From positions 517,501 through 581,500 of the forward strand of contig NZ_CP025628.1 in NCBI RefSeq assembly GCF_003072465.1: DNA of 64,000 nucleotides, given 5' to 3'. Origin of the DNA: Candidatus Kinetoplastibacterium sorsogonicusi. Its GTDB lineage: Bacteria > Pseudomonadota > Gammaproteobacteria > Burkholderiales > Burkholderiaceae_B. Positions 8,592 through 64,000 of this stretch are shown here, one piece after another (position 1 is the stretch's first letter; each line of letters starts with the position of its first letter). The position numbers and the translations under genes are program-made. Under the pieces are notes generated by a model that saw only the letters and a list, made by a program, of their open reading frames with translations, did no database searches and was not told the origin of the DNA.

Positions 8592-10529
8592 CTATTTATC
8601 TTTATTAACTTCTTTAAATTCGGCATCAACAACATTATCTGTATTTTCTTCACTTGCTTTATTATCATTACTATTTTGCTGATTATTTTCTGTAGACTGT
8701 TTAGCTTGCATATCAGCATATAATAATTCACCAAGCTTTTGAGATGCTGTAGTTAAATTGTTAACTTTTTCTTCTATAGATGCTTTATCACCATCTTGTA
8801 ATGATTTTTCTAAATCTTTGATAGCATTTTCTATTTTATCTTTGTCAGAAGCATCTAATTTATCCCCATATTCAGTTATAGACTTACGAGTACTATGAAT
8901 TAAAGCATCTGCATTATTACGTACTTGTGCTAATTCAGCTAGGCGATGATCTTCCTCAGCATTTATTTCTGCATCTTTAACCATTTTTTGAATTTCTGCC
9001 TCTGATAATCCAGAATTAGCTTTTATAGTAATTTTATTTTCTTTACCAGTTCCTTTATCTTTAGCTGATACATGCAAAATACCATTTGCATCTATATCAA
9101 AAGTAACTTCTATTTGAGGCATACCTCTTGGAGAAGCAGGAATACCTTCTAAATTAAATTCACCTAATGCTTTATTATGAACTGCTATCTCTCTTTCTCC
9201 TTGATATACTTTAATTGTTACAGACGGTTGATTGTCTTCAGCAGTAGAAAATACTTGTGAATATTTTGTTGGAATAGTAGTATTTTTATTAATCATTTTT
9301 GTCATAACACCGCCTAAAGTTTCAATGCCTAATGACAAAGGAGTAACATCAAGAAGTAATACATCTTTTTTATCTCCTGATAAAACAGCACCTTGCACAG
9401 CAGCACCAGCTGCTACAGCTTCATCTGGATTAATATCTTTACGTGGATCTTTACCAAAAAATTCTTTTACCTTTTCTTGTACTTTTGGCATTCTAGTCAT
9501 ACCACCAACTAAAATCACATCATCTATTTCAGATACAGATATACCAGCATCTTTTATTGCTATCTTACAAGGACTGATACTGCGATCTATAAGATCTTCA
9601 ACAAGTGATTCAAATTTAGCTCTAGAAATTTTCATATTTAAATGTTTTGGCCCAGAAGAATCAGCTGTAATATATGGTAAATTAATCTCTGTTTGTTGAG
9701 AGGATGACAATTCTATTTTAGCTTTTTCTGCAGAATCTTTTAATCTTTGCAAAGCTAACATATCTTTAGTCAAATCAATACCATTTTCTTTTTTAAATTC
9801 ACTAATAATATATTCTATTAAATTTTGATCAAAATCTTCACCACCAAGAAAAGTATCACCGTTCGTAGATAAAACTTCAAACTGTTTTTCACCATCAATA
9901 TCAGCTATCTCTATAATTGAAACATCAAAAGTACCACCGCCTAAATCATAAACAGCTATTTTTTTATCACGCTTGTCTGATTTATCTAAACCAAATGCTA
10001 AAGCAGCAGCAGTTGGTTCATTTATAATTCTTTTTACATTTAGTCCTGCTATACGACCAGCATCTTTTGTAGCTTGTCTTTGGCTATCATTAAAATAGGC
10101 TGGTACAGTTATAACTGCTTCTGTAACTTCTTCACCTAAATAATCTTCAGCTGTTTTTTTCATTTTACGTAAAATTTCAGCCGAAATTTGTGGAGGAGCA
10201 ATTTTTTTATCTCTAATTTCTATCCAAGCATCTCCATTATCAGCTTTAATTATTTTATATGGCATTAAAGCTATATCTTTTTTTACAGCATCTTCACTAA
10301 ATTTTCTTCCAATTAATCTTTTGCTTGCATATATAGTATTTTTAGCATTAGTGACTGCTTGTCGTTTTGCTGAAGCACCAACTAATATTTCTCCATCTTC
10401 CATATATGCTACTATAGATGGTGTAGTGCGAGCACCTTCAGAGTTTTCTATAATTCTGACTTGTTTACCATCCATTACAGCAACACAACTATTAGTAGTT
10501 CCTAAATCTATACCTATAGTTTTTCCCAT
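8592..10529 (-). CDS. dnaK: Chaperone DnaK (Hsp70)
   Basis: 645-aa ATP-dependent Hsp70. The nucleotide-binding domain begins [16 protein letters not shown] and contains [19 protein letters not shown] and [14 protein letters not shown] motifs. The interdomain linker is [19 protein letters not shown], followed by the peptide-binding beta domain, a helical lid, and a conserved tail ending [13 protein letters not shown]. Start at 10529 ([10 protein letters not shown]) is preceded by AAGGTGG at 5-6 bases; the upstream in-frame codon at 10553 is unsupported. Transcription is likely heat-inducible from the sigma-32-type promoter at 10613-10642. grpE lies upstream and dnaJ downstream. Confidence 0.98.
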
Positions 10530-28887: not shown

Positions 28888-29571
28888 ATGAATACTACTA
28901 CACAATATTTATATTCAATAATAGACTTCAAAGGTATCACATTATATGCAATAAAATTAGTGATTTATTCTAATGATATTAATTTGATTAATATTAATTT
29001 AAGACAGCATATATCTAAAAATCCATTATTTTTTCAAAATGAATCTTTAATATTAGATTTAACAAATGTAAATGATGATATAGATGTAAAAGAATTACTT
29101 AATGTATTAAAACAGCATAAATTAAATATAATTGGTTTTAATGCAATAGGTAATAATTATAGTAATTTAATTATTTATGGTATCCCTTATATAGATAATA
29201 CTTATATTAATAAAAATTATAATAAACAAACTAGTATTCAAGAACCTACATTGATTATTAATAAACCATTGAGATCAGGGCAAAAAATATATGCAAAAAA
29301 TGCTGATTTAGTTATAATAGGAATGGTAAGCCAAGGAGCTGAAATCATTGCAGATGGTCATATTCATGTATATGGACCATTAAGGGGTAAAGCAATAGCT
29401 GGTGCTAACGGGAATGTGAAATCATGTATATTTACAACTCAATTAGACGCCGAGTTATTATCTATATCAGGTATTTATAATATGTTAGATAATAAGTTAA
29501 ATAAAAATATATATAATCGTCCAACATTAACTTATTTATATAATGAAAAATTATATATTGAATCAATTTAA
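28888..29571 (+). CDS. minC: Septum site-determining protein MinC
   Basis: Inhibitor of FtsZ polymerisation, carried to the membrane by MinD. 227 aa. The N-terminal domain (1-110) is weakly conserved. The C-terminal beta-helix is clear: LRSGQKIYAKNADLVIIG, then VSQGAEIIADGHIHVYGPLRGKAIAGANG and a dimer/MinD contact region. It abuts glnS with no spacer, so it may be read from the same transcript, and leads minD by 68 bases. Confidence 0.93.
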   Translation: MNTTTQYLYSIIDFKGITLYAIKLVIYSNDINLININLRQHISKNPLFFQNESLILDLTNVNDDIDVKELLNVLKQHKLNIIGFNAIGNNYSNLIIYGIPYIDNTYINKNYNKQTSIQEPTLIINKPLRSGQKIYAKNADLVIIGMVSQGAEIIADGHIHVYGPLRGKAIAGANGNVKSCIFTTQLDAELLSISGIYNMLDNKLNKNIYNRPTLTYLYNEKLYIESI

Positions 29572-29639: not shown

Positions 29640-30455
29640 ATGGCACGTGTAATTGTCATAACATCAGGAAAAGGTGGAGTAGGAAAAACTACTAGTAGTG
29701 CAAGTTTTTCTGCAGGTTTAGCTATGCATGGATATAAAACAGTAGTTATTGATTTTGATGTTGGTTTACGTAATTTAGATCTCATTATGGGATGTGAAAG
29801 AAGAGTAGTATATGATTTTGTAAATGTTATTAATAATGATGCTACACTAAATCAAGCATTAATTAAAGATAAATTAGTACAAAATTTATATATTTTACCT
29901 GCTTCACAAACTAGAGATAAAGATGCTTTAACTAAAGATGGTGTAGGAAAAATTATAAATGATTTAAAAAATATGGGTTTTGAATATATAGTATGTGATT
30001 CACCTGCAGGTATAGAAACAGGTGCTTTAATGGCTGCATATTTTGCTGATGATGCAATTATTGTTACAAATCCAGAAATTTCTTCTGTAAGAGATTCTGA
30101 TAGAATATTAGGTATATTGTCTTCTAAATCAAAGCGAGCTATTAATAATGAAGAACCGATAAAAGAATTTTTGTTAGTAACACGTTATAATGCTAAAAGA
30201 GCTATAAACGGAGAAATGTTATCTATTTCAGATATAGAAGATATTTTAAGAATAAATTTAATTGGAATTATACCAGAGTCTGAAAATATCCTAAGTGCTT
30301 CAAATCAAGGTATTCCTGTTATTCATATGGATAATACTGATGTATCAATAGCATATAAAGATTTAGTATCTAGATATCTAGGAAATGATATAGATATGAA
30401 ATTTATAAATTATGAAAAACCAGGCATATTAAAACGATTATTTAGAAGGAAATAA
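29640..30455 (+). CDS. minD: Septum site-determining ATPase MinD
   Basis: Membrane-binding ParA-type ATPase that places MinC. 271 aa, full length. Deviant Walker [16 protein letters not shown] at residues 8-22, [22 protein letters not shown] in two blocks, switch [11 protein letters not shown], and a C-terminal amphipathic membrane anchor [16 protein letters not shown] lies just ahead of the start. minE follows after one base. Confidence 0.98.
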
Positions 30456-30456
30456 A

Positions 30457-30708
30457 ATGTCTTTTTTATCATTTTTTTTAGGTACGCCAAAAAAGTCTGC
30501 ATTATTAGCAAAAGATAGATTAAAAATAATCTTAGCTCAAGAAAGATCTGAAGGATCTATTGATTATTTACCTCAATTACAAAAAGAATTAATTGAGGTA
30601 ATTTCTAAATATATAAAGGTAAATCCCGAAGATATAAAAGTTAACTTAGAAAGAGATGGATCTCTAGATATTTTAGAAGTAAAAATAGAAATGAATCAAA
30701 TTAAATAA
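30457..30708 (+). CDS. minE: Cell division topological specificity factor MinE
   Basis: Stimulates MinD ATPase and drives pole-to-pole oscillation. 83 aa. The N-terminal amphipathic segment is MSFLSFFLG, the MinD-contact helix [14 protein letters not shown], and the C-terminal dimerisation domain [29 protein letters not shown] in part. GGAAATAA precedes the start. Its stop directly abuts the stop of the convergent ettA; the transcript ends at a hairpin inside the ettA 3' end. Confidence 0.96.
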
Positions 30709-39756: not shown

Positions 39757-40206
39757 ATGATCAATATAGCTAATATAAATAACTTGCAAGATACAATTAT
39801 CATTGCCCAGAAAATTTCAAAATTTATTTTAAAAAATGGGCATGCAAATAATATTAATATTCACTTAAATGGACCGGTTGGTATTGGAAAAACTACATTA
39901 ATAAGATATATATTACAAAATTGTGGAATTAAAGCAAGAATCAAAAGTCCAAGTTTTAATATAATAGAATATTATTCTACAGAAAGTTTTAAATTTTATC
40001 ATATTGATTTTTATCGATTAAATAACAGAGATACATCAATTTTATTTGAATTAAAAGATTACATAAAAAATAATTCTATTTTATTAATTGAATGGCCTGA
40101 AATTTTTTTAGATGATTTACCTAAACCAAATATATCAATTGTATTAGAGTATATTAATAAAAATCGTGTAGCTAAAATTTTTGCAAAAGATCATATAAAA
40201 ATATAA
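39757..40206 (+). CDS. tsaE: tRNA t6A biosynthesis ATPase TsaE
   Basis: Small ATPase that works with TsaB and TsaD to attach threonylcarbamoyl to A37 of ANN-decoding tRNAs; one of the most retained genes in reduced genomes. 149 aa. Walker A LNGPVGIGKTTLIRY near residue 40, switch region KSPSFNIIEYY, and YHIDFYRLNNRD plus LIEWPEIF, all diagnostic. Its stop overlaps the amiC start (TAATG at 40204-40208), so the two are coupled. Confidence 0.95.
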   Translation: MINIANINNLQDTIIIAQKISKFILKNGHANNINIHLNGPVGIGKTTLIRYILQNCGIKARIKSPSFNIIEYYSTESFKFYHIDFYRLNNRDTSILFELKDYIKNNSILLIEWPEIFLDDLPKPNISIVLEYINKNRVAKIFAKDHIKI

Positions 40207-41423
40207 TGATAAGTAAATTCAAAATAAATTATGTAAAATTTATTTTATTTATGTTATTTATATTATTTTATGGAATATCTACTTTTTCATATGCTAATTC
40301 AGCAATTGATGTGAGAATATGGCATTCTAATGAATATAAACGTATTACTATAGAATTAGACAATAATATTAGTGTTAAAAAATTTTTTTTAAAAGATCCT
40401 AATAGATTAGTAGTTGATATTCATAATTTAAAAATAAATAAAATTATTCAAAAGATATCATCTTTAATAAAATGTGATGATCCTTATATAATTAAAATTA
40501 AAATTGCACAATATGAACATAATATTGTAAGGGTAGTATTTTATTTAAAAAAAGATATAGAACCTCAAATATTCATTTTAAAACCTGTATCTAATTATAA
40601 TTATAGACTTATATTAGATTTATATACAAAATCGAAACAAGATTCTTTAATGTCTTTAATAGATATAACTAAAAAAAATAATATTATTAAAGATCCTATT
40701 GATGATATTATTAATAGCATAGAATTTCGTAGCCATAGAAAAAAATTTAATATTGTAATAGATCCAGGACACGGTGGTGAAGATCCAGGAGCAATTGGAA
40801 AAGTAGGACTATATGAAAAAGATATTGTATTGAGTATAGCTAAAAAATTAAAAATTTTAATAAATAATACTCCTAACATGAATGCATATCTTACTAGAGA
40901 AGGTGACTATTTTGTTCCTCTAAATGTAAGAATAAAAAAAGCTAGAATAATGAAAGCTGATTTACTAATATCAATACATACTAACTCATGGTTTAAATCT
41001 AATGCTAGAGGTACATCAGTTTTTGTATTATCCAATGTTGGTGCATCTAGCACACAGGCAAAATGGATTGCTAATAAAGAAAATTCATCTGATCTAATAG
41101 GTGGTATTAATTTGACAACCCAAGATCAAAATATAGCTAAAATATTGCTAGATTTATCTACTACATTACAAATTAATAATTCTATTAAGTTAGGTAATTT
41201 TTTATTAAACGAATTTAAAAAATTCAATGTTTTATACAAAAAAAATGTCGAGCATGCAAATTTTGCCATTTTAAAAATCCCTGATATTCCTTCAGTTTTA
41301 ATAGAAACAGCTTTTATAAGTAATCCTTTAGAAGAACAGTTATTAAAATCAAATGATTATCAAAATAATATTGCAAAAGCTATTTTAATTTGTATAAAAA
41401 AATATTTTGATATTAAAAATTAA
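40206..41423 (+). CDS. amiC: N-acetylmuramoyl-L-alanine amidase (AmiC type)
   Basis: Periplasmic zinc amidase that splits septal peptidoglycan for daughter-cell separation. 405 aa. An N-terminal hydrophobic signal (about 10-30, ending SYANS) lacks an obvious twin-arginine, so Sec export is likely. An AMIN domain (about 35-135) targets septal wall, and Amidase_3 starts at IVIDPGHGGEDPGAIG with zinc His, then SIHTNSW and catalytic Glu in IETAFISNP. Its retention indicates real peptidoglycan at the septum although ftsW and ftsQ are missing from their usual sites. An EnvC/NlpD-type activator is not in this window. Confidence 0.94.
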   Translation: MISKFKINYVKFILFMLFILFYGISTFSYANSAIDVRIWHSNEYKRITIELDNNISVKKFFLKDPNRLVVDIHNLKINKIIQKISSLIKCDDPYIIKIKIAQYEHNIVRVVFYLKKDIEPQIFILKPVSNYNYRLILDLYTKSKQDSLMSLIDITKKNNIIKDPIDDIINSIEFRSHRKKFNIVIDPGHGGEDPGAIGKVGLYEKDIVLSIAKKLKILINNTPNMNAYLTREGDYFVPLNVRIKKARIMKADLLISIHTNSWFKSNARGTSVFVLSNVGASSTQAKWIANKENSSDLIGGINLTTQDQNIAKILLDLSTTLQINNSIKLGNFLLNEFKKFNVLYKKNVEHANFAILKIPDIPSVLIETAFISNPLEEQLLKSNDYQNNIAKAILICIKKYFDIKN

Positions 41424-55943: not shown

Positions 55944-56051
55944 ATTAAATTCTTTGAATAAGATTCAATTAAATATTAACAATAAAACCATTTTTAATGT
56001 TATAAAATAATTATTTATAAAATTAGTAATTTGATTACAGGTAATGCTAAC

Positions 56052-56537
56052 ATGATTGAAGAGTATACATCAAAATTAGAAGCAGATACAAACATGCCAA
56101 CATCATTGATAAGCTCAATAAAAAATAATAATATTATAGAAGTAGCTAATTTTTATATAAATTTACAAAATATTATTAGAAATATACTTCCTAATAATAT
56201 AGCAAAATATTGCTATATTGGTTATATAGAAAATAACGAAATAATAATCAAAGTACCTAATTCTGCTTATGCATCAAAAATAAGACAACTTTCACCTTCA
56301 ATTATTTATCATTTAAAAAAAATAAATTTTCAAACAAATAATAGCTTACCAATTTCTATTATAATCAAGATACAAAATGATTTAGTAAATTTAGAATATA
56401 AAAAAATTAATAAAAGTATTCCTACTTTAAGTAAAAAAGATATTAGTAATTTTGAAAAATTAGTATTTCATATAAAAGATATAAAATTAAAAAATGCAAT
56501 AAACACTTTAATTAAAAATCATCAAATATTATCTTAA
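56052..56537 (+). CDS. dciA: DciA/DUF721-family protein (probable replicative helicase loader)
   Basis: 161 aa. The central region (LPNNIAKYCYIGYIENNEIIIKVP then NSAYASKIRQLSP) follows the DUF721/DciA pattern: a hydrophobic strand pair and a conserved Ala-Ser-Lys/Arg-Leu-Arg helix. In many bacteria without DnaC, DciA delivers the DnaB helicase. Sequence is divergent, so identification also leans on position between secA and ftsZ, the betaproteobacterial location. Start set at the ATG at 56052 (MIEEYTSK), with AGGT nine bases ahead; the in-frame TTG at 56031 is less likely. Confidence 0.68.
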   Translation: MIEEYTSKLEADTNMPTSLISSIKNNNIIEVANFYINLQNIIRNILPNNIAKYCYIGYIENNEIIIKVPNSAYASKIRQLSPSIIYHLKKINFQTNNSLPISIIIKIQNDLVNLEYKKINKSIPTLSKKDISNFEKLVFHIKDIKLKNAINTLIKNHQILS

Positions 56538-56770: not shown

Positions 56771-57928
56771 CTAATCAACTTGCTTCCTAAGAAAAGAAGG
56801 TATATCAAAATGATCTACCCCTGAATCTTCTAAAGCTTTAATTTGGGAAGAAGCTTGATTTCGAAGATTTTTGTTCAATACTTGATTATCTGATTTTTGT
56901 TCATTATTAGTGTTAATAACATTTTCTTTGCTATTTTTAATATTTTTATCTATTATATTGGAGTTTTTATTATCTAAATTTTTTCCAAGACCTGTAGCAA
57001 CAACAGTAACCCTTAATTTATCGCCCATTGTATCATCATAAGCATTACCAAAAATTATCGTTGCATCTTCAGCAGCATAACTTCTAATAGTTTCCATAAT
57101 TTCTCTAGTTTCTCTCATTTTTAATGATTTTCCAGAAGTTATATTTACTAATATACCTTTAGCACCGTGTAAATCTACACCTTCTAAAAGTGGACAAGCT
57201 ATAGCATCTTCTGCTGCGATACGTGCTCTATCTACACCTTCTGCTGTAGCTGTACCCATCATAGCTTGTCCTTTCTCTCCCATGATAGTACGTACATCTT
57301 CAAAATCTACATTAACATTACCTTCTACATTAATAATTTCAGCAATACCAGCACAAGCATTATTTAAAATACTATCAGCAGATTTAAAACAGTCTTCTTG
57401 AGTTGCATCTTCATCAAGCAAATCGTAAAGTTTTTCATTTAATACAACTATAAGAGAATGTACATGTTTTGATAATTCTTTAATACCTTCTTCTGCCATT
57501 CTCATTCTTCTATTACCTTCAAAAGCAAAAGGTTTTGTTACTACACCAACAGTTAAAATCCCTAATTCTTTTGCTATTTCTGCTACTATAGGGCTAGCAC
57601 CAGTTCCAGTACCTCCACCCATGCCAGCAGTTATAAATACCATATTAGCACCATTTAATGCATTACGAATATCTTCACGAGCTGTTTCAGCACAAGCACG
57701 ACCTTGATCTGGTTTAGCACCAGCCCCCAAACCAGAGCGTCCTAAACGAATTTGTATTGGTGCTTCTGTGATAGCTAAAGCTTGTGCATCAGTATTAGCA
57801 CAAATAAAATCTACACCTTTAACTCCACTACGAATCATATGATTAACAGCATTACCTCCAGCACCACCTACACCAATAACTTTTATTATTGTACCATTAG
57901 GATTATCTGCTAATATTTCAAAATTCAT
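56771..57928 (-). CDS. ftsZ: Cell division GTPase FtsZ
   Basis: Tubulin-like GTPase forming the Z ring. 385 aa. N-terminal IKVIGVGGAGGNAVNHMI, GTP-binding GMGGGTGTGASPIVAEIAKE near residue 105, T7 loop NVDFEDVRTIM, and the C-terminal conserved peptide DHFDIPSFLRKQVD that binds FtsA and ZipA. The linker (about 315-365) is Asn/Lys-rich. It is the last gene of the dcw run; ftsA is 71 bases upstream. Confidence 0.98.
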   Translation of the reverse strand: MNFEILADNPNGTIIKVIGVGGAGGNAVNHMIRSGVKGVDFICANTDAQALAITEAPIQIRLGRSGLGAGAKPDQGRACAETAREDIRNALNGANMVFITAGMGGGTGTGASPIVAEIAKELGILTVGVVTKPFAFEGNRRMRMAEEGIKELSKHVHSLIVVLNEKLYDLLDEDATQEDCFKSADSILNNACAGIAEIINVEGNVNVDFEDVRTIMGEKGQAMMGTATAEGVDRARIAAEDAIACPLLEGVDLHGAKGILVNITSGKSLKMRETREIMETIRSYAAEDATIIFGNAYDDTMGDKLRVTVVATGLGKNLDNKNSNIIDKNIKNSKENVINTNNEQKSDNQVLNKNLRNQASSQIKALEDSGVDHFDIPSFLRKQVD

Positions 57929-57999
57929 TATAATTACCTCTATTTATTATTTAGGTCATATAAATTTATATTATATATGTATGTTTTATTACATTAAAT

Positions 58000-59214
58000 T
58001 TAATTAATAAACCAATATTTAATTTTTTTTAAAAATTTTTTAATATTAATATTAGCGTATTGCAATATATTCAAATTATTTTCTTGAAAAGTTTGTTCAC
58101 TAGCATCTCTTAATAAACCTATAGCAGCGGAAAAAGCTGGATCACGAATAATATTCGATAATGAACCATTATAATTTGGAATACCTATTTTAATATTTTT
58201 TCTAAAAATATTTTTTGCTAAATCTGTAATTCCAAATAATTTTGCTGTTCCACCAGTTATTACAATAGAAGAAATTAAATTATCATATTTTCCTTCAAGA
58301 ATTATTTTTTTTATTAAAATAAATAATTCTTGAACACGTGTTTCAATAATTTCTTCTAATAAATCTATTGTTATGTTATTAAATTCAATATTATCAATAA
58401 TTTTTTTTATTGCTAAGAATTTGTTTGGATCTTTATAATTTAGCTTTATAAACTCAGCTTGTTCAAAAGAAATTTGATAAATAGTTGCTATATCATTAGT
58501 TATATTATTACCAGCTATAGAAATTACTTTGTTATAACACACAACACCATTATAAAAAATAACTATATCAGTCGTACCTCCACCTATATCTAATAGAATA
58601 ACACCTAATTTTTTATCATCTTCTGTTAAAACTGCATTACTTGATGCTAATGAGTGTAAATATATATCTTTTAATTTTACTTTACATTTATATATACAAT
58701 TTATTAAAGTGTTTAATACACTAGAAGAACTAGTAACAATATGAGATTTAACTCCTAAAGTTGATGAAATAATACCTAAAGGATTAGTAATATTATTGTT
58801 ATTATCGATAATAAAATTTTTAATAATGACATTGAGCAATTGTTGACCTGATGGAATATTCATATTTTTTGCAACATTAATTACTTTTTGAATATCTAAA
58901 TCTGTTATTTCCGAATTATTAACAGAAATCATACTTTCTGAATTAAAACAATTAATATGATCACCAGTAATAGTTGTATATATATAATTTAACTTAACTT
59001 TTGCCATTGATTCTGCTATATGAATAGCAGAAATGACATCATTAATAGTGACTTCGATATTGACTATAATACCTTTTTTTACTCCTGACGATATTTTATG
59101 ACCAATACCAATAATTTCAAAATTTTTTTTTGAATTTATCATTGCTAATAACACAACTATTTTAGTTGTACCAATATCTACTATTCCTACAATATTTTTA
59201 TGTTTAACATTCAT
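58000..59214 (-). CDS. ftsA: Cell division protein FtsA
   Basis: Actin-fold protein anchoring FtsZ to the membrane. 404 aa. Phosphate-1 loop GIVDIGTTKIVVLLA, SHMA-domain (about 80-160), LLDIGGGTTDIVIF phosphate-2, VITGGTAKLFG adenosine loop, and a C-terminal amphipathic, basic membrane helix (NIKKFLKKIKYWFIN). Lies 37 bases after the end of ddl; ftsQ, which normally separates ddl and ftsA, is missing. Confidence 0.96.
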   Translation of the reverse strand: MNVKHKNIVGIVDIGTTKIVVLLAMINSKKNFEIIGIGHKISSGVKKGIIVNIEVTINDVISAIHIAESMAKVKLNYIYTTITGDHINCFNSESMISVNNSEITDLDIQKVINVAKNMNIPSGQQLLNVIIKNFIIDNNNNITNPLGIISSTLGVKSHIVTSSSSVLNTLINCIYKCKVKLKDIYLHSLASSNAVLTEDDKKLGVILLDIGGGTTDIVIFYNGVVCYNKVISIAGNNITNDIATIYQISFEQAEFIKLNYKDPNKFLAIKKIIDNIEFNNITIDLLEEIIETRVQELFILIKKIILEGKYDNLISSIVITGGTAKLFGITDLAKNIFRKNIKIGIPNYNGSLSNIIRDPAFSAAIGLLRDASEQTFQENNLNILQYANINIKKFLKKIKYWFIN

Positions 59215-59251
59215 AAGATTTTATATAATTAAATCTATATAATATATAAAT

Positions 59252-60199
59252 TTAATTTTTATTAATGATTTTATTATATTTACAAGATGCACTAGAAAGT
59301 ATTATTATACATAAATCTTCATAACTTAAACCACTTGCTTGTGCTGCTAATGGTAATAATGAATGTTCAGTCATACCAGGAACAGTATTAATTTCTAATA
59401 ACCAAATTTCATTTTTGTCGTCAAGAATCATATCTATTCTAACTGATCCTTCACATTTAAAAATTTTATAAGATAACTCACAAAAATTTATAATCTTGTC
59501 ATATATATATTTATCAAGTGATGCAGGGCAAAAATATTGAGTCTCATTTGAAAAATATTTATGCTCATAATCATAATTATTGTTTGGGGTAATAATTTCA
59601 ATAATAGGTAAAATATTTATATCATTAATACCATTATTAATTATTCCAACTGTTAATTCTCGACCATAAATAAAATTTTCTATTAAAATTTCTTTATCAT
59701 ATAATAAAGCTTGATCAATAGCATGTTTTAAATCATTTATAGTTATTGCTTTTAATATCCCTAAAGTAGAACCTTCAGATGCAGGCTTTACAATTACAGG
59801 AAAATCAAATGATTTTTTATAAAAATCAGATTTTGTATTTTTATTAAATATCGTAAAAGCTGGTGTAGGTAAATTATATTGCATCCATATATATTTGGTT
59901 ATAATTTTATTCATACATAAACTAGAAGTTAATGGACCACTACCCGTATATGGAATACCAATTAACTCTAATGCACCTTGAATAATACCATCTTCACCAT
60001 ATCTTCCATGTAAAGATATAAAAGCTCTTTTAATACCTAAAGATTTTAATTCACATATATTATTATATTTTATATCAAATAAACAAGCATCAATATTTTT
60101 AGAAATTAATGCTTTATAAATTGCTTTACCAGACATAAGGGAAACATCTCTTTCTGCAGAATATCCTCCACATAATATAGCTACTTTACCAAAATTCAT
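59252..60199 (-). CDS. ddl: D-alanine-D-alanine ligase
   Basis: ATP-grasp enzyme making the D-Ala-D-Ala end of peptidoglycan precursors. 315 aa. N-terminal [46 protein letters not shown] in part, [16 protein letters not shown], and [15 protein letters not shown]. Start fixed by the ATGA overlap with the murC stop (ATG 60199-60197); an upstream in-frame TTG at 60214 would start inside murC. In this cluster the enzyme is the DdlB type. Confidence 0.97.
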
Positions 60200-61605
60200 A
60201 TTGATTTTTTCCAAAATTCATGTACTTTACTAATAGATCCAGCTCCCATAATTATAAGAACATCCTTATCTCTTATTATATTCATTATGATTTTTGGAAT
60301 ATTTTCAATATTTTCGACAAATATTGGTTCAATTTTACTAAATACTCTTAAAGCTCTAGATAATGACCGACCATCTGCTGCAATTATAGCTTTTTCTCCA
60401 GCACTATAAACTTCGGTAAGTAATAGAACATCTACATTACTTAATACTTTAATAAAATCTTCAAAGCAATCACGTGTTCTAGTATATCTATGTGGCTGAA
60501 AAGCTAATACTATTCTCCTGTCAGGCCATATTCCTCTTGCTGCATCTAAAGTAGCTTGTATTTCCATAGGGTGATGTCCATAATCATCTATTATAGTAAA
60601 TAAGCCACCACCATTATTTTTATTAACATTAAAATCACCAATATAACTAAATCTACGACTCACTCCACGAAAATCTTTTAATGCAAGGCATATAGAATGA
60701 TCCTTTATATCTAATTCAGTAGCAACTGCTATTGCTGCTAAAGCATTTCTAACATTATGAATACCTGGCAAATTTAAAGTAATATCTAAAGGTTTTTTTT
60801 CAATACCATTAATATTTTTACGTTCTACATGAAATAACATGCGAGTCCCAATACACTGAATATTACTAGCTTTAATATTAGCATCATTATCCAAACCATA
60901 TGTAATAGCAGTTCTAGAAATATTCGGAATAATATTCTTTATATTAATATCATCTATACATAAAATTGCAGTACCATAAAAGGGTAATTTATGTATAAAA
61001 TTAATAAAAGTATTTTTTAATATATTTATATTATGATTATAAGTATCCATATGATCAATCCCTATGTTGGTAACTATAGAAATTATTGGAGATAGATCTA
61101 AAAATGAAGCATCAGATTCATCAGCTTCTACAATAATATAATCTCCTTGACCAAGGACAGCACTAGTACCTATTGCATTTAACTTTCCTCCTATTACAAA
61201 TGTAGGATCGAGTCCTTCATAAGCTAAAATACTAGATACAAGACTAGTTGTAGTAGTTTTTCCATGAGTACCAGCAACAGCAATTCCTCTTTTCAAACGC
61301 ATCAATTCTGCTAACATAATTGCACGAGGTACTATTGGAATATTTTTCTGTCTTGCATAACATACTTCAGGATTATCATTTGAAATAGCAGATGAAACAA
61401 CTAATACATCTGCTCCTAATATATTTTCAGATGCATGACCTATATAAATATTCGCTCCCATAGATTTCAGCCTAGATGTAATATTAGATTCAAATAAATC
61501 TGAACCACTAATAGTATAGTTAAGATTTAATAATAACTCAGCTATACCATTCATACCTGAACCACCTATACCTACGAAATGAATATGTTTTATTTTATTT
61601 TTCAT
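60196..61605 (-). CDS. murC: UDP-N-acetylmuramate-L-alanine ligase
   Basis: Adds L-Ala to UDP-MurNAc, starting the stem peptide. 469 aa. N-terminal substrate-binding [21 protein letters not shown]-binding [25 protein letters not shown], central [12 protein letters not shown], and [12 protein letters not shown] with DDYGHHP. Overlaps murG at the start by 11 bases and ddl at the end by four, so the three genes are translated together. Confidence 0.98.
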
Positions 61606-62683
61606 TAATATTATCTTTTAATAATTCACAAAAATCTGCAAGATTTTTACTAGCCATTGGTTTAGAATATTTCTGAATATTTATAGCCATATTTTGTAAT
61701 TTTTTTCTATCTAAATCTTTTAGCCACAAAGACAAATTTTTTGGGTTTAAATCTTTTTCTTCTTTTAACCAAGCTACATTATTTTGTTCCAAAAATTTTG
61801 CATTTTCTAGTTGATGATTATCCGCAGCATATGGAAATGGTACAAATAATGTAGCAACTCCAATAGCGCATATTTCTGCAATAGTCATACCACCAGATCT
61901 ACATATTATTAAATCATTTTCTGACATTTGATATGCAATATCTTCTATAAATGGAATACATGTTGCTCTCACATTATATTGAGAATATATATTTTTCAAA
62001 GAATCAATATGTACTAAACCAGATTGATGTGTAACAATTGGTCTAATATTAAAATTAATTAATGATAAAGCTTTTGGTATAAGAATATTGAGAGTTTGAG
62101 CACCTAAACTACCTCCTAATACTAAAATTTTTAAAGGACCTGTTCTATTAGAATATCGTTTTAATGGATCATTATATAGCAAAATATCATCTCTAATAGG
62201 ATTACCTATATAATATGAATCTTTAAATACATTTGGAAATCCACTAAATTTATATTTAATAAATTTTGCTAAAACTTTATTTGCATATCCAGGGATAATA
62301 TTTTGTTCATGTAATATGACTTTATATCCCATAAGATAAGCTATAAAACTGCATGGAAAAGAAACATATCCTCCAAAACCTAAAACTATATCAGGTTTGA
62401 ATTTTTTTATTAATTTAAAAGATATAAAAAATGATTTTAAAAGTGTAAAGATAAATTTTAAAAATTCTATTAACTGAAATTTATTACGTTTTAATCCAAT
62501 ACAATTAATTGAATAAAATTTGATGCCATGTTTAGGAACCAAAAATGCTTCCATATTATTAGAATTTCCAACCCATATAACTTCCCAATTACTTTTCATT
62601 AATAAATTAGCTATAGTAATTCCAGGCATAATATGTCCACCAGTACCTCCAGCAGATATAATAATTTTTTTGTTTTTAATCAT
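61595..62683 (-). CDS. murG: Lipid II synthase MurG (GlcNAc transferase)
   Basis: Membrane-associated glycosyltransferase adding GlcNAc to lipid I to form lipid II. 362 aa. It has [78 protein letters not shown] and [15 protein letters not shown]. Because ftsW, the lipid II polymerase normally just upstream in the same operon, is absent here, how lipid II is polymerised cannot be read from this window. Confidence 0.97.
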
Positions 62684-62757
62684 TCAAATATAATTCCTAT
62701 GTAGATATTAATTCTATGAATAAATCATATATTAAAATAAACATAATTTAACATACT

Positions 62758-64000
62758 TTATATTTGAGAATTTTTAGCTAACTGTAAAACTTCTTGACTA
62801 AATGTTTCACCACGCTGTTTATAACTTGAAAACATATCTAAACTTGAACAAGCTGGAGATAATAATACAATATCACCTTCACAAGCATTTTGATATGCTT
62901 TTATGACAGCTTCTTTCATATTATTAGCATATATATATGTTATATTATCATTATCTAATATCTTAGCTATATGATATGCATCTATACCAATTAAGATAAT
63001 TATTCTGATATTTTTTAAAAATGGTAATAATAATGAAAAATCTTGACCTTTGCTAATACCACCTAAAATAAGTACTTTTTTATTATTATAAGAATTTAAA
63101 GCAGCTATAGTAGCTCCGATATTTGTAGCTTTGCTATCATTAATATAATCAACATTATTAATTCTGCATATAAAAGTGTTTCTATGTGATTCACCTAAAT
63201 ATTTTGGTAAAAATGAAAAAATTTTTTCTATTGGAATACCAATAGATCTAATTAATAATAAAGCTGCTAAAACATTTAGATAATTATGTATACCTTTAAT
63301 AAATAATAAATCACTATCTATAATGTATGAGTATTTGTTAAAACTATGATAAGATACAAGCAATTTTTTGCAATTATGATTAATAATACCCATATCATTA
63401 GTATATTTTGGCTTACTAATACCAAAACTATAAATATTTTTCGAATTAATACTGTTTAAATTATTAAGAATATATTCATCATCTCTATTTATAATTAATA
63501 TTTTAGCATTTTTTGCTATACTAATTTTACTTTTTATATAATTATCTAAATTTAGATGCCAATCAATATGGTCAGGTGAAATATTCAAAATTGTAGCTAC
63601 ATCTATATGTAAATTATAGGTAGTAGTTAATTGAAAACTAGATAACTCAATTACCCAAACATCAGGTAAATTATTAGAAATAATAGCATATTCAAGAACT
63701 GATATTGCTGATTTTCCAATATTACCTACTGCAACTGCATATAAACCATAAGAATTAATTAAAAACGAAGTTAACGTAGTTACAGTAGTTTTACCATTTG
63801 TACCAGTAATTGCAATCACTTTAGGTTGATAATTATTTTTCTTTTTTAAATTCAATAAAGCTTGAGCAAAAACTTCAATTTCACTAATGATTTCTATATT
63901 ATTTTTGATAGCAAGATTTAGTAAATTACTAAATGAACTATTGCCTAATGATATACCTGGACTAACTACAATTTTAGAAACATTATGCAATACTGAGAAA
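62758..64000 (-). CDS. murD: UDP-N-acetylmuramoylalanine-D-glutamate ligase, 3' part (5' end beyond window)
   Basis: Adds D-Glu to UDP-MurNAc-L-Ala. About 413 residues are visible, and the frame stays open to the right edge; the TTG codon at 63990 is not a believable start. The N-terminal Rossmann substrate-binding domain is mostly outside. Visible motifs are VVSPGISLGNSSF, Walker-type VIAITGTNGKTTVTTLTSFL, NISPDHIDWHLNLDNY, NDSKATNIGATIAAL, VLILGGISKGQDFS, and LLSPACSSLDMFSSYKQRGE near the end. It leads murG across 74 bases, a space that would normally contain ftsW. Confidence 0.96.
   Translation of the reverse strand, partial: FSVLHNVSKIVVSPGISLGNSSFSNLLNLAIKNNIEIISEIEVFAQALLNLKKKNNYQPKVIAITGTNGKTTVTTLTSFLINSYGLYAVAVGNIGKSAISVLEYAIISNNLPDVWVIELSSFQLTTTYNLHIDVATILNISPDHIDWHLNLDNYIKSKISIAKNAKILIINRDDEYILNNLNSINSKNIYSFGISKPKYTNDMGIINHNCKKLLVSYHSFNKYSYIIDSDLLFIKGIHNYLNVLAALLLIRSIGIPIEKIFSFLPKYLGESHRNTFICRINNVDYINDSKATNIGATIAALNSYNNKKVLILGGISKGQDFSLLLPFLKNIRIIILIGIDAYHIAKILDNDNITYIYANNMKEAVIKAYQNACEGDIVLLSPACSSLDMFSSYKQRGETFSQEVLQLAKNSQI

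Follow-up and report, generated by a model that had tools for sequence, protein, structure and literature searches.

Loss of the Septal Synthase and Retention of FtsZ, FtsA and SPOR Proteins in Candidatus Kinetoplastibacterium sorsogonicusi

Introduction

The division and cell wall (dcw) cluster of Candidatus Kinetoplastibacterium sorsogonicusi raises the question of what is left of a bacterial division system once the places of ftsQ and ftsW beside ftsA, ftsZ and the mur genes are empty. The cluster lies in a stretch of 64,000 bases (the window), which corresponds to bases 517501–581500 of the single contig NZ_CP025628.1 (741,697 bases, completeness 99.97). The initial annotation of the window described the missing genes as a selective loss of the late divisome. 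This description does not cover the genome as found, which encodes RlpA and has a SPOR protein at both the FtsN and the DedD locus; with FtsQLB-FtsWI gone but FtsZ, FtsA and SPOR proteins still present, the case is not one of plain late-divisome loss. A lineage with FtsZ, FtsA and SPOR proteins and no septal synthase is the new part of the present analysis, the core loss being already known. The takeover of endosymbiont division by the host is central to the origin of organelles, and intermediates are seldom seen. Unless stated otherwise, the comparisons cover 41 genomes, namely K. sorsogonicusi, seven Kinetoplastibacterium siblings and 33 outgroups.

FtsA and the SPOR Proteins

The ftsA gene (window 58000–59214, minus strand; TIGR01174, 336 bits, cut-off 176) is followed by ftsZ (56771–57928, minus strand; TIGR00065, 387 bits, cut-off 295). 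FtsA scored over the cut-off in K. sorsogonicusi and in 33/33 outgroups, and in none of the seven siblings. The presence of this gene, taken for granted by the initial annotation, is the real surprise of the cluster because the seven siblings are without it. The protein passed the curated model, with the SHS2 (1C) domain PF02491 and PF14450 both over their cut-offs, and is 38.6% identical to the FtsA of outgroup G008, eight other dcw proteins being 35 to 75% identical. In the alignment, its nucleotide-binding motifs and C-terminal end are conserved, and an arginine stands at the position of residue 300 of PDB chain 7q6d, which we take to be E. coli FtsA with residue 300 binding FtsZ. The comparisons of FtsA and of the FtsZ tail used 36 loci (L025–L060) out of 65, and eight loci were used in the tree described below. 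With the domain limits set roughly by hand, the columns conserved in 90% of the outgroups were kept here in 31/65 cases for domain 1C, 47/115 for 1A, 37/71 for 2A, 16/52 for 2B and 6/17 for the tail; looser constraint on domain 1C, which binds FtsN, had been expected, and was not found in this column count. The sub-cut-off FtsA matches of the siblings lie at other loci, in frames of 349 or 611–649 residues, lengths that would suit the related proteins MreB and DnaK, these names being putative.

Three SPOR domains were detected in K. sorsogonicusi, none in the seven siblings and at least two in each of the 33 outgroups. The protein named FtsN by locus (191 residues; contig 9588–10163, minus strand; PF05036 over the cut-off) is encoded between argS and dsbA, whereas the SPOR protein named DedD by locus (155 residues; contig 312902–313369, plus strand) is encoded between folC and cvpA. 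The same orders were found in 8/8 (argS-SPOR-dsbA) and 5/5 (folC-SPOR-cvpA) of the outgroup stretches fetched, and the two places are presumably the FtsN and DedD loci, from which the names are taken. Aligned by eye, FtsN has a short basic tail and a single membrane helix, then a conserved stretch and a C-terminal SPOR domain; a search with this protein returned two entries, both from the K. sorsogonicusi contig itself. RlpA (263 residues; contig 657154–657945, which is L024 2155–2946, plus strand) reached 181 bits with TIGR00413 (cut-off 82), contains PF03330 (DPBB) and PF05036 (SPOR), and shares its core motif with the six outgroups aligned (6/6). By eye, it apparently does not have the lipoprotein cysteine found in most of these six and may be secreted. 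Using a simple composition estimate at 24% GC, the chance that a frame of the same length would stay open without constraint was about 4e-17 for ftsA, 2e-8 for ftsN, 5e-7 for dedD and 2e-11 for rlpA.

FtsA and the three SPOR proteins are thus found only in K. sorsogonicusi among the eight genomes of the genus. In the literature covered, neither FtsA nor FtsN was found described for K. sorsogonicusi, and Motta et al. 2013 was the only paper to name Kinetoplastibacterium along with ftsW, dcw, ftsA or FtsN; Silva et al. 2018 and Maurya et al. 2025 (Science Advances) lay outside that coverage, so that these proteins may already be in print.

The Same Loci in the Siblings

The corresponding places of the siblings were found to be closed up. 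In all seven, ftsZ comes directly after ddl, at distances of about 120–320 bases. The order argS-dsbA without ftsN was found in 4/4 siblings fetched (G004–G007), and folC-cvpA without dedD in three of these four, the stretch from G005 ending before the locus. All three frames of the genes' strand carry stops in the 14 sibling gaps, which are bounded by alignment ends and in some cases include the starts or ends of neighbouring genes. Remnants of ftsA, ftsN and dedD were searched for with 32 query proteins against these gaps and rejected, the matches to the proper gap having E values of 1.6 or worse. The lowest E value of any query was 0.016, and the weak gap matches are regarded as noise because this best one was cvpA in a ddl-ftsZ gap. 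Neither rlpA nor rapZ was found beside rsmI in any of the seven siblings, within 2.6–4.3 kb on that side. In K. sorsogonicusi, rapZ (L024 1286–2149) adjoins rlpA, and the sibling search for it was limited to that place.

Loss of the Septal Synthase

The initial annotation had noted that 37 bases separate ddl from ftsA and 74 bases separate murD from murG, where ftsQ and ftsW normally lie, and both the spacings and the usual positions were borne out by the coordinates and by the outgroup layouts. The 37-base gap (59215–59251, minus strand) lies between ftsA and ddl (59252–60214, minus strand; NF002378, 364 bits, cut-off 243) at the ftsQ place of the relatives, and the 74-base gap (62684–62757, minus strand) lies between murG (61595–62683, minus strand; TIGR01133, 296 bits, cut-off 250) and murD (62758–64000 with its start beyond the window end, minus strand; TIGR01087, 334 bits, cut-off 212; whole gene L023 10259–11749) at their ftsW place. 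The missing genes cannot fit in these gaps. In the clusters of two outgroups of the family, G008 and G020, murD and murG are separated by a SEDS gene, the distance from ddl to ftsA is about 0.8 kb, and a class B penicillin-binding protein (PBP) is encoded between murEF and rsmH. The FtsQ match lies directly upstream of the FtsA match in 32/33 outgroups, the two being on different contigs in the fragmented assembly G026. Beyond the window end, the cluster continues through murD, mraY, a murEF fusion and rsmH, and neither ftsI nor ftsL was found between murEF and rsmH or elsewhere in the genome.

The possibility that ftsQ and ftsW had merely been relocated on the chromosome was rejected by a profile search of the whole genome, in which FtsQ_DivIB_C (PF03799) gave no match and SEDS (PF01098) gave one, RodA. 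The two genes are lost and not moved, as the initial annotation had claimed. The sole SEDS protein scored 420 bits with the RodA model (cut-off 337) and 276 bits with the FtsW model (cut-off 338). Its gene adjoins that of PBP2 (712 bits, cut-off 455), and the neighbours of the pair match mreB, mreC and mreD by position, their sibling copies also by sequence. Only two genes with a transpeptidase domain are present, PBP2 and a PBP1A-family protein (567 bits, cut-off 509). The homologue search that the initial annotation had suggested thus left rodA as the only SEDS gene, with ftsQ, ftsI, ftsL and ftsB not found, and the loss is wider than was stated there, comprising FtsI, FtsL and FtsB too. FtsB gave no match in the genome, and an FtsL candidate was rejected (E = 0.009, below the cut-off, inside a 701-residue frame).

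The same loss extends across the genus. The SEDS search was confined to the eight genus genomes, and the sibling SEDS proteins were scored over the matched stretch. Each of the eight genomes has one SEDS protein, RodA-scoring and below the FtsW cut-off, and two transpeptidase domains, with no third PBP class that could be FtsI (PBP3); 3 to 6 such domains were counted in 32 outgroups and two in G018. FtsQ was found in 0/8 genus genomes and 33/33 outgroups, FtsL over the cut-off in 0/8 and 33/33, and FtsB over the cut-off in 0/8 and 32/33, the exception being G029, which is 68% complete. An FtsL candidate in G003 (E = 0.041, 54-residue frame) and FtsB candidates in five siblings (E = 3.6e-4 to 0.09, below the cut-off, frames of 207–580 residues) were rejected. 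Of the components of a canonical FtsWI divisome, an FtsW-type SEDS protein, FtsI, and FtsQ with FtsL and FtsB were not found in K. sorsogonicusi.

This core loss, together with the idea of RodA as a stand-in, is already known for two members of the genus. Motta et al. 2013 (PMC3616161) report, for the symbionts of Angomonas deanei and Strigomonas culicis, that FtsZ, RodA and PBP2 are kept, as they are here, and that FtsQ, FtsB, FtsL, FtsW and FtsI are absent; they also propose that RodA could replace FtsW. Unlike in K. sorsogonicusi, where FtsA and (by locus) FtsN are present, these two are listed there as not determined in both symbionts, along with FtsE, ZipA, FtsQ, FtsB and FtsL. The suggestion of the initial annotation that RodA or another SEDS protein takes over septal synthesis accordingly keeps RodA as its only candidate, and was published in 2013.

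Phylogenetic Position and Host Proteins

In a phylogeny built from seven dcw proteins (18 taxa, 3182 columns, LG+G4), K. sorsogonicusi was sister to the other seven members of the genus with support of 99/99. Its branch is 0.87 changes per column long and 17 of the 18 rows have an unusual composition, so this position is not safe on the tree alone. A 431-gene tree places Ca. K. sorsogonicusi in the same position, as the earliest branch of the genus (PMC8229890). ALAD, one enzyme of the haem pathway, is absent in K. sorsogonicusi and present in 7/7 siblings. This absence fits the title of Silva et al. 2018, which reportedly refers to loss of the haem pathway. The host is very probably Kentomonas sorsogonicus, a unicellular insect parasite.

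Host-encoded proteins at the division site of the Angomonas symbiont, mentioned in the initial annotation, agree with published work and are not new. In PMC12505957, the host dynamin-like protein ETP9 is described as essential for symbiont division in A. deanei, its recruitment depending on ETP2. ETP2 and ETP7 are reported to occur throughout Angomonas and Strigomonas and to be missing in Kentomonas sorsogonicus, whose ETP9 is said to be so diverged that its fold is unclear (PMC12505957). The division-site host proteins named in the sections examined are a dynamin-like, a disordered and a lysozyme-domain protein, with no SEDS protein or FtsQ among them. The A. deanei symbiont resembles K. sorsogonicusi in belonging to the same bacterial genus and in having FtsZ and no septal synthase genes; unlike it, K. 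sorsogonicusi keeps FtsA and SPOR proteins, in a host reportedly without ETP2 and ETP7 and with a highly diverged ETP9. The genus is described there only as having lost most essential division genes with ftsZ kept, and the word ftsA does not occur in the main text of PMC12505957. Such a genus-level account conceals that the Kentomonas symbiont really differs from the rest of the genus.

FtsZ Tail, Min System and Amidase

The C-terminal peptide of FtsZ is kept in all eight genus genomes. For the tail comparison, outgroup L057, without the motif, was dropped, leaving 37 of 38 outgroups. A stretch of 17 residues before the peptide, conserved in the outgroups, keeps 11/17 residues in K. sorsogonicusi, 1–3 in the siblings (L090–L096) and at least eight in 36/37 outgroups; it has thus diverged in all seven FtsA-less siblings while the peptide was kept.

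The Min placement genes remain, as the initial annotation had stated: minC (window 28888–29571, plus strand; TIGR01222, 179 bits, cut-off 95), minD (29640–30455, plus strand; TIGR01968, 340 bits, cut-off 213) and minE (30457–30708, plus strand; TIGR01215, 96 bits, cut-off 49). The gene read there as amiC encodes a cell wall amidase (40206–41423, plus strand; Amidase_3 over the cut-off); its assignment to AmiC is less firm, the best NCBIfam model, NF038267 (AmiC), giving 399 bits, below the strict cut-off of 700. This gene is whole here and in five of seven siblings and broken in G001 and G007. The breaks are stops or shifts (G001:C1:747160–747780 and G007:C1:606354–606997), and both genomes group in the tree with G006, which has a whole gene.

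Possible Explanations

The best explanation of these observations is that a tether of FtsZ, FtsA and SPOR proteins was kept in K. sorsogonicusi after the loss of the septal synthase and was later lost on the sibling branch, to which we assign a probability of roughly 0.45. The gene set is what was observed, and the mechanism is inferred from the general behaviour of the FtsZ, FtsA, FtsN, SPOR and Min families. Min would place the Z-ring and FtsA would anchor it, while the 1C domain of FtsA would meet the cytoplasmic tail of FtsN; the SPOR domains of FtsN, DedD and RlpA would attach the ring to the wall at glycan that the amidase has stripped. Division-site wall would be made by RodA-PBP2, PBP1A or both, and would be opened by the amidase and RlpA. 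By parsimony, FtsQLB-FtsWI would have been lost before the genus radiated, and FtsA, FtsN, DedD and RlpA would each have been lost once on the branch of the siblings, although parallel losses are possible. That branch would comprise the symbionts of Angomonas and Strigomonas, hosts with ETP2, ETP7 and a typical ETP9. In E. coli, FtsN and FtsA activate FtsQLB-FtsWI. Compared with this system, K. sorsogonicusi is alike in having FtsZ, FtsA, the FtsN-locus protein, DedD by locus, RlpA, an AmiC-like amidase and MinCDE, and unlike in that the complex activated there is absent.

A more tentative extension sees in the Kentomonas symbiont a surviving intermediate stage of a process by which the host takes over division. 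The tether would then have been swapped for host proteins, ETP2-ETP9 taking the place of FtsA-FtsN and the lysozyme-domain protein ETP7 that of wall cutting by RlpA, with the wall made by RodA-PBP2 or PBP1A. If true, the septal synthase was lost first and the link from ring to wall later, on the branch of hosts with ETP2 and ETP7, and FtsA and FtsN can persist without the complex that they activate, which would imply a tethering role independent of FtsWI. The coincidence on a shared branch yields direct tests, and the lineage merits experiments.

Several points weigh against the tether explanation and its extension. The FtsN-locus protein gave 26 bits with the FtsN model TIGR02223 and did not pass its cut-off of 108, and most of its periplasmic linker is lost in the alignment by eye. 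The outgroup proteins at the argS-dsbA locus scored 47–64 bits (0/8 over the cut-off), and the name FtsN rests on locus and SPOR domain because the model failed here and in these eight outgroups. The DedD protein matches no NCBIfam family. The evidence from the FtsZ tail is less strong than had been hoped, since outgroup G020 is a counter-example, having FtsA yet keeping 2/17 of the stretch. Domain 1C of FtsA is kept no better than the other domains, which speaks neither for nor against. The divisome searches of the genus were directed at FtsA, FtsQ, FtsL, FtsB and the SEDS, transpeptidase and SPOR proteins. The absence of ETP2 and ETP7 in Kentomonas rests on one draft genome, and the host-protein difference and the bacterial losses on the same branch are a single coincidence, which alone proves nothing. 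No experiments on K. sorsogonicusi were found in the literature.

Plain reductive decay, with FtsA, FtsN, DedD and RlpA as leftovers and division as host-driven as in Angomonas, is considered rather unlikely. It would fit a genome that is otherwise the smallest of the eight (the siblings have about 0.8 Mb) and has lost ALAD, the shortened FtsN linker, the gene loss still going on in the genus (as with the amidase broken in 2/7 siblings) and the report of an ETP9 in Kentomonas too, though highly diverged. Leftovers would nevertheless have to account for four intact frames of 155–404 codons in DNA of 24% GC on a long branch, with the FtsA, SPOR and RlpA motifs conserved, and for four functionally linked genes kept jointly in the most reduced genome and jointly missing from the other seven.

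RodA and PBP2 are kept in 8/8 genus genomes, and another possibility is that RodA-PBP2 has fully replaced FtsW-FtsI throughout the genus. In all eight the Z-ring would then recruit the pair to mid-cell, and little would depend on FtsA and the SPOR proteins. The published suggestion of RodA for FtsW (Motta et al. 2013, PMC3616161) and the reported filamentation of the Angomonas symbiont under beta-lactams point in the same direction. Such a replacement leaves the presence of FtsA and SPOR proteins here and their absence in the siblings unexplained, and is judged improbable. We know of no recruitment route of RodA-PBP2 to the Z-ring. Supply of the missing FtsW or FtsQ by the host nucleus appears very improbable: host proteins do reach the division site of the Angomonas symbiont, but those described in the sections examined include no SEDS protein or FtsQ.

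Other Features of the Cluster

All dcw genes of the window are on the minus strand. The retention of ftsA, ftsZ, murC, murD, murG and ddl given in the initial annotation was confirmed, each scoring over its NCBIfam cut-off: FtsZ, FtsA, MurC (60196–61605, minus strand; TIGR01082, 526 bits, cut-off 335), MurG and the window part of MurD passed equivalog cut-offs and Ddl a subfamily cut-off. The murE and murF genes beyond the window end form a single fused gene of 945 residues (L023 12827–15664), and a similar fusion was seen in the siblings and in two outgroups, as one long match spanning both. A divergent DciA-like gene (56031–56537; PF05258, 32.5 bits, cut-off 24) adjoins secA.

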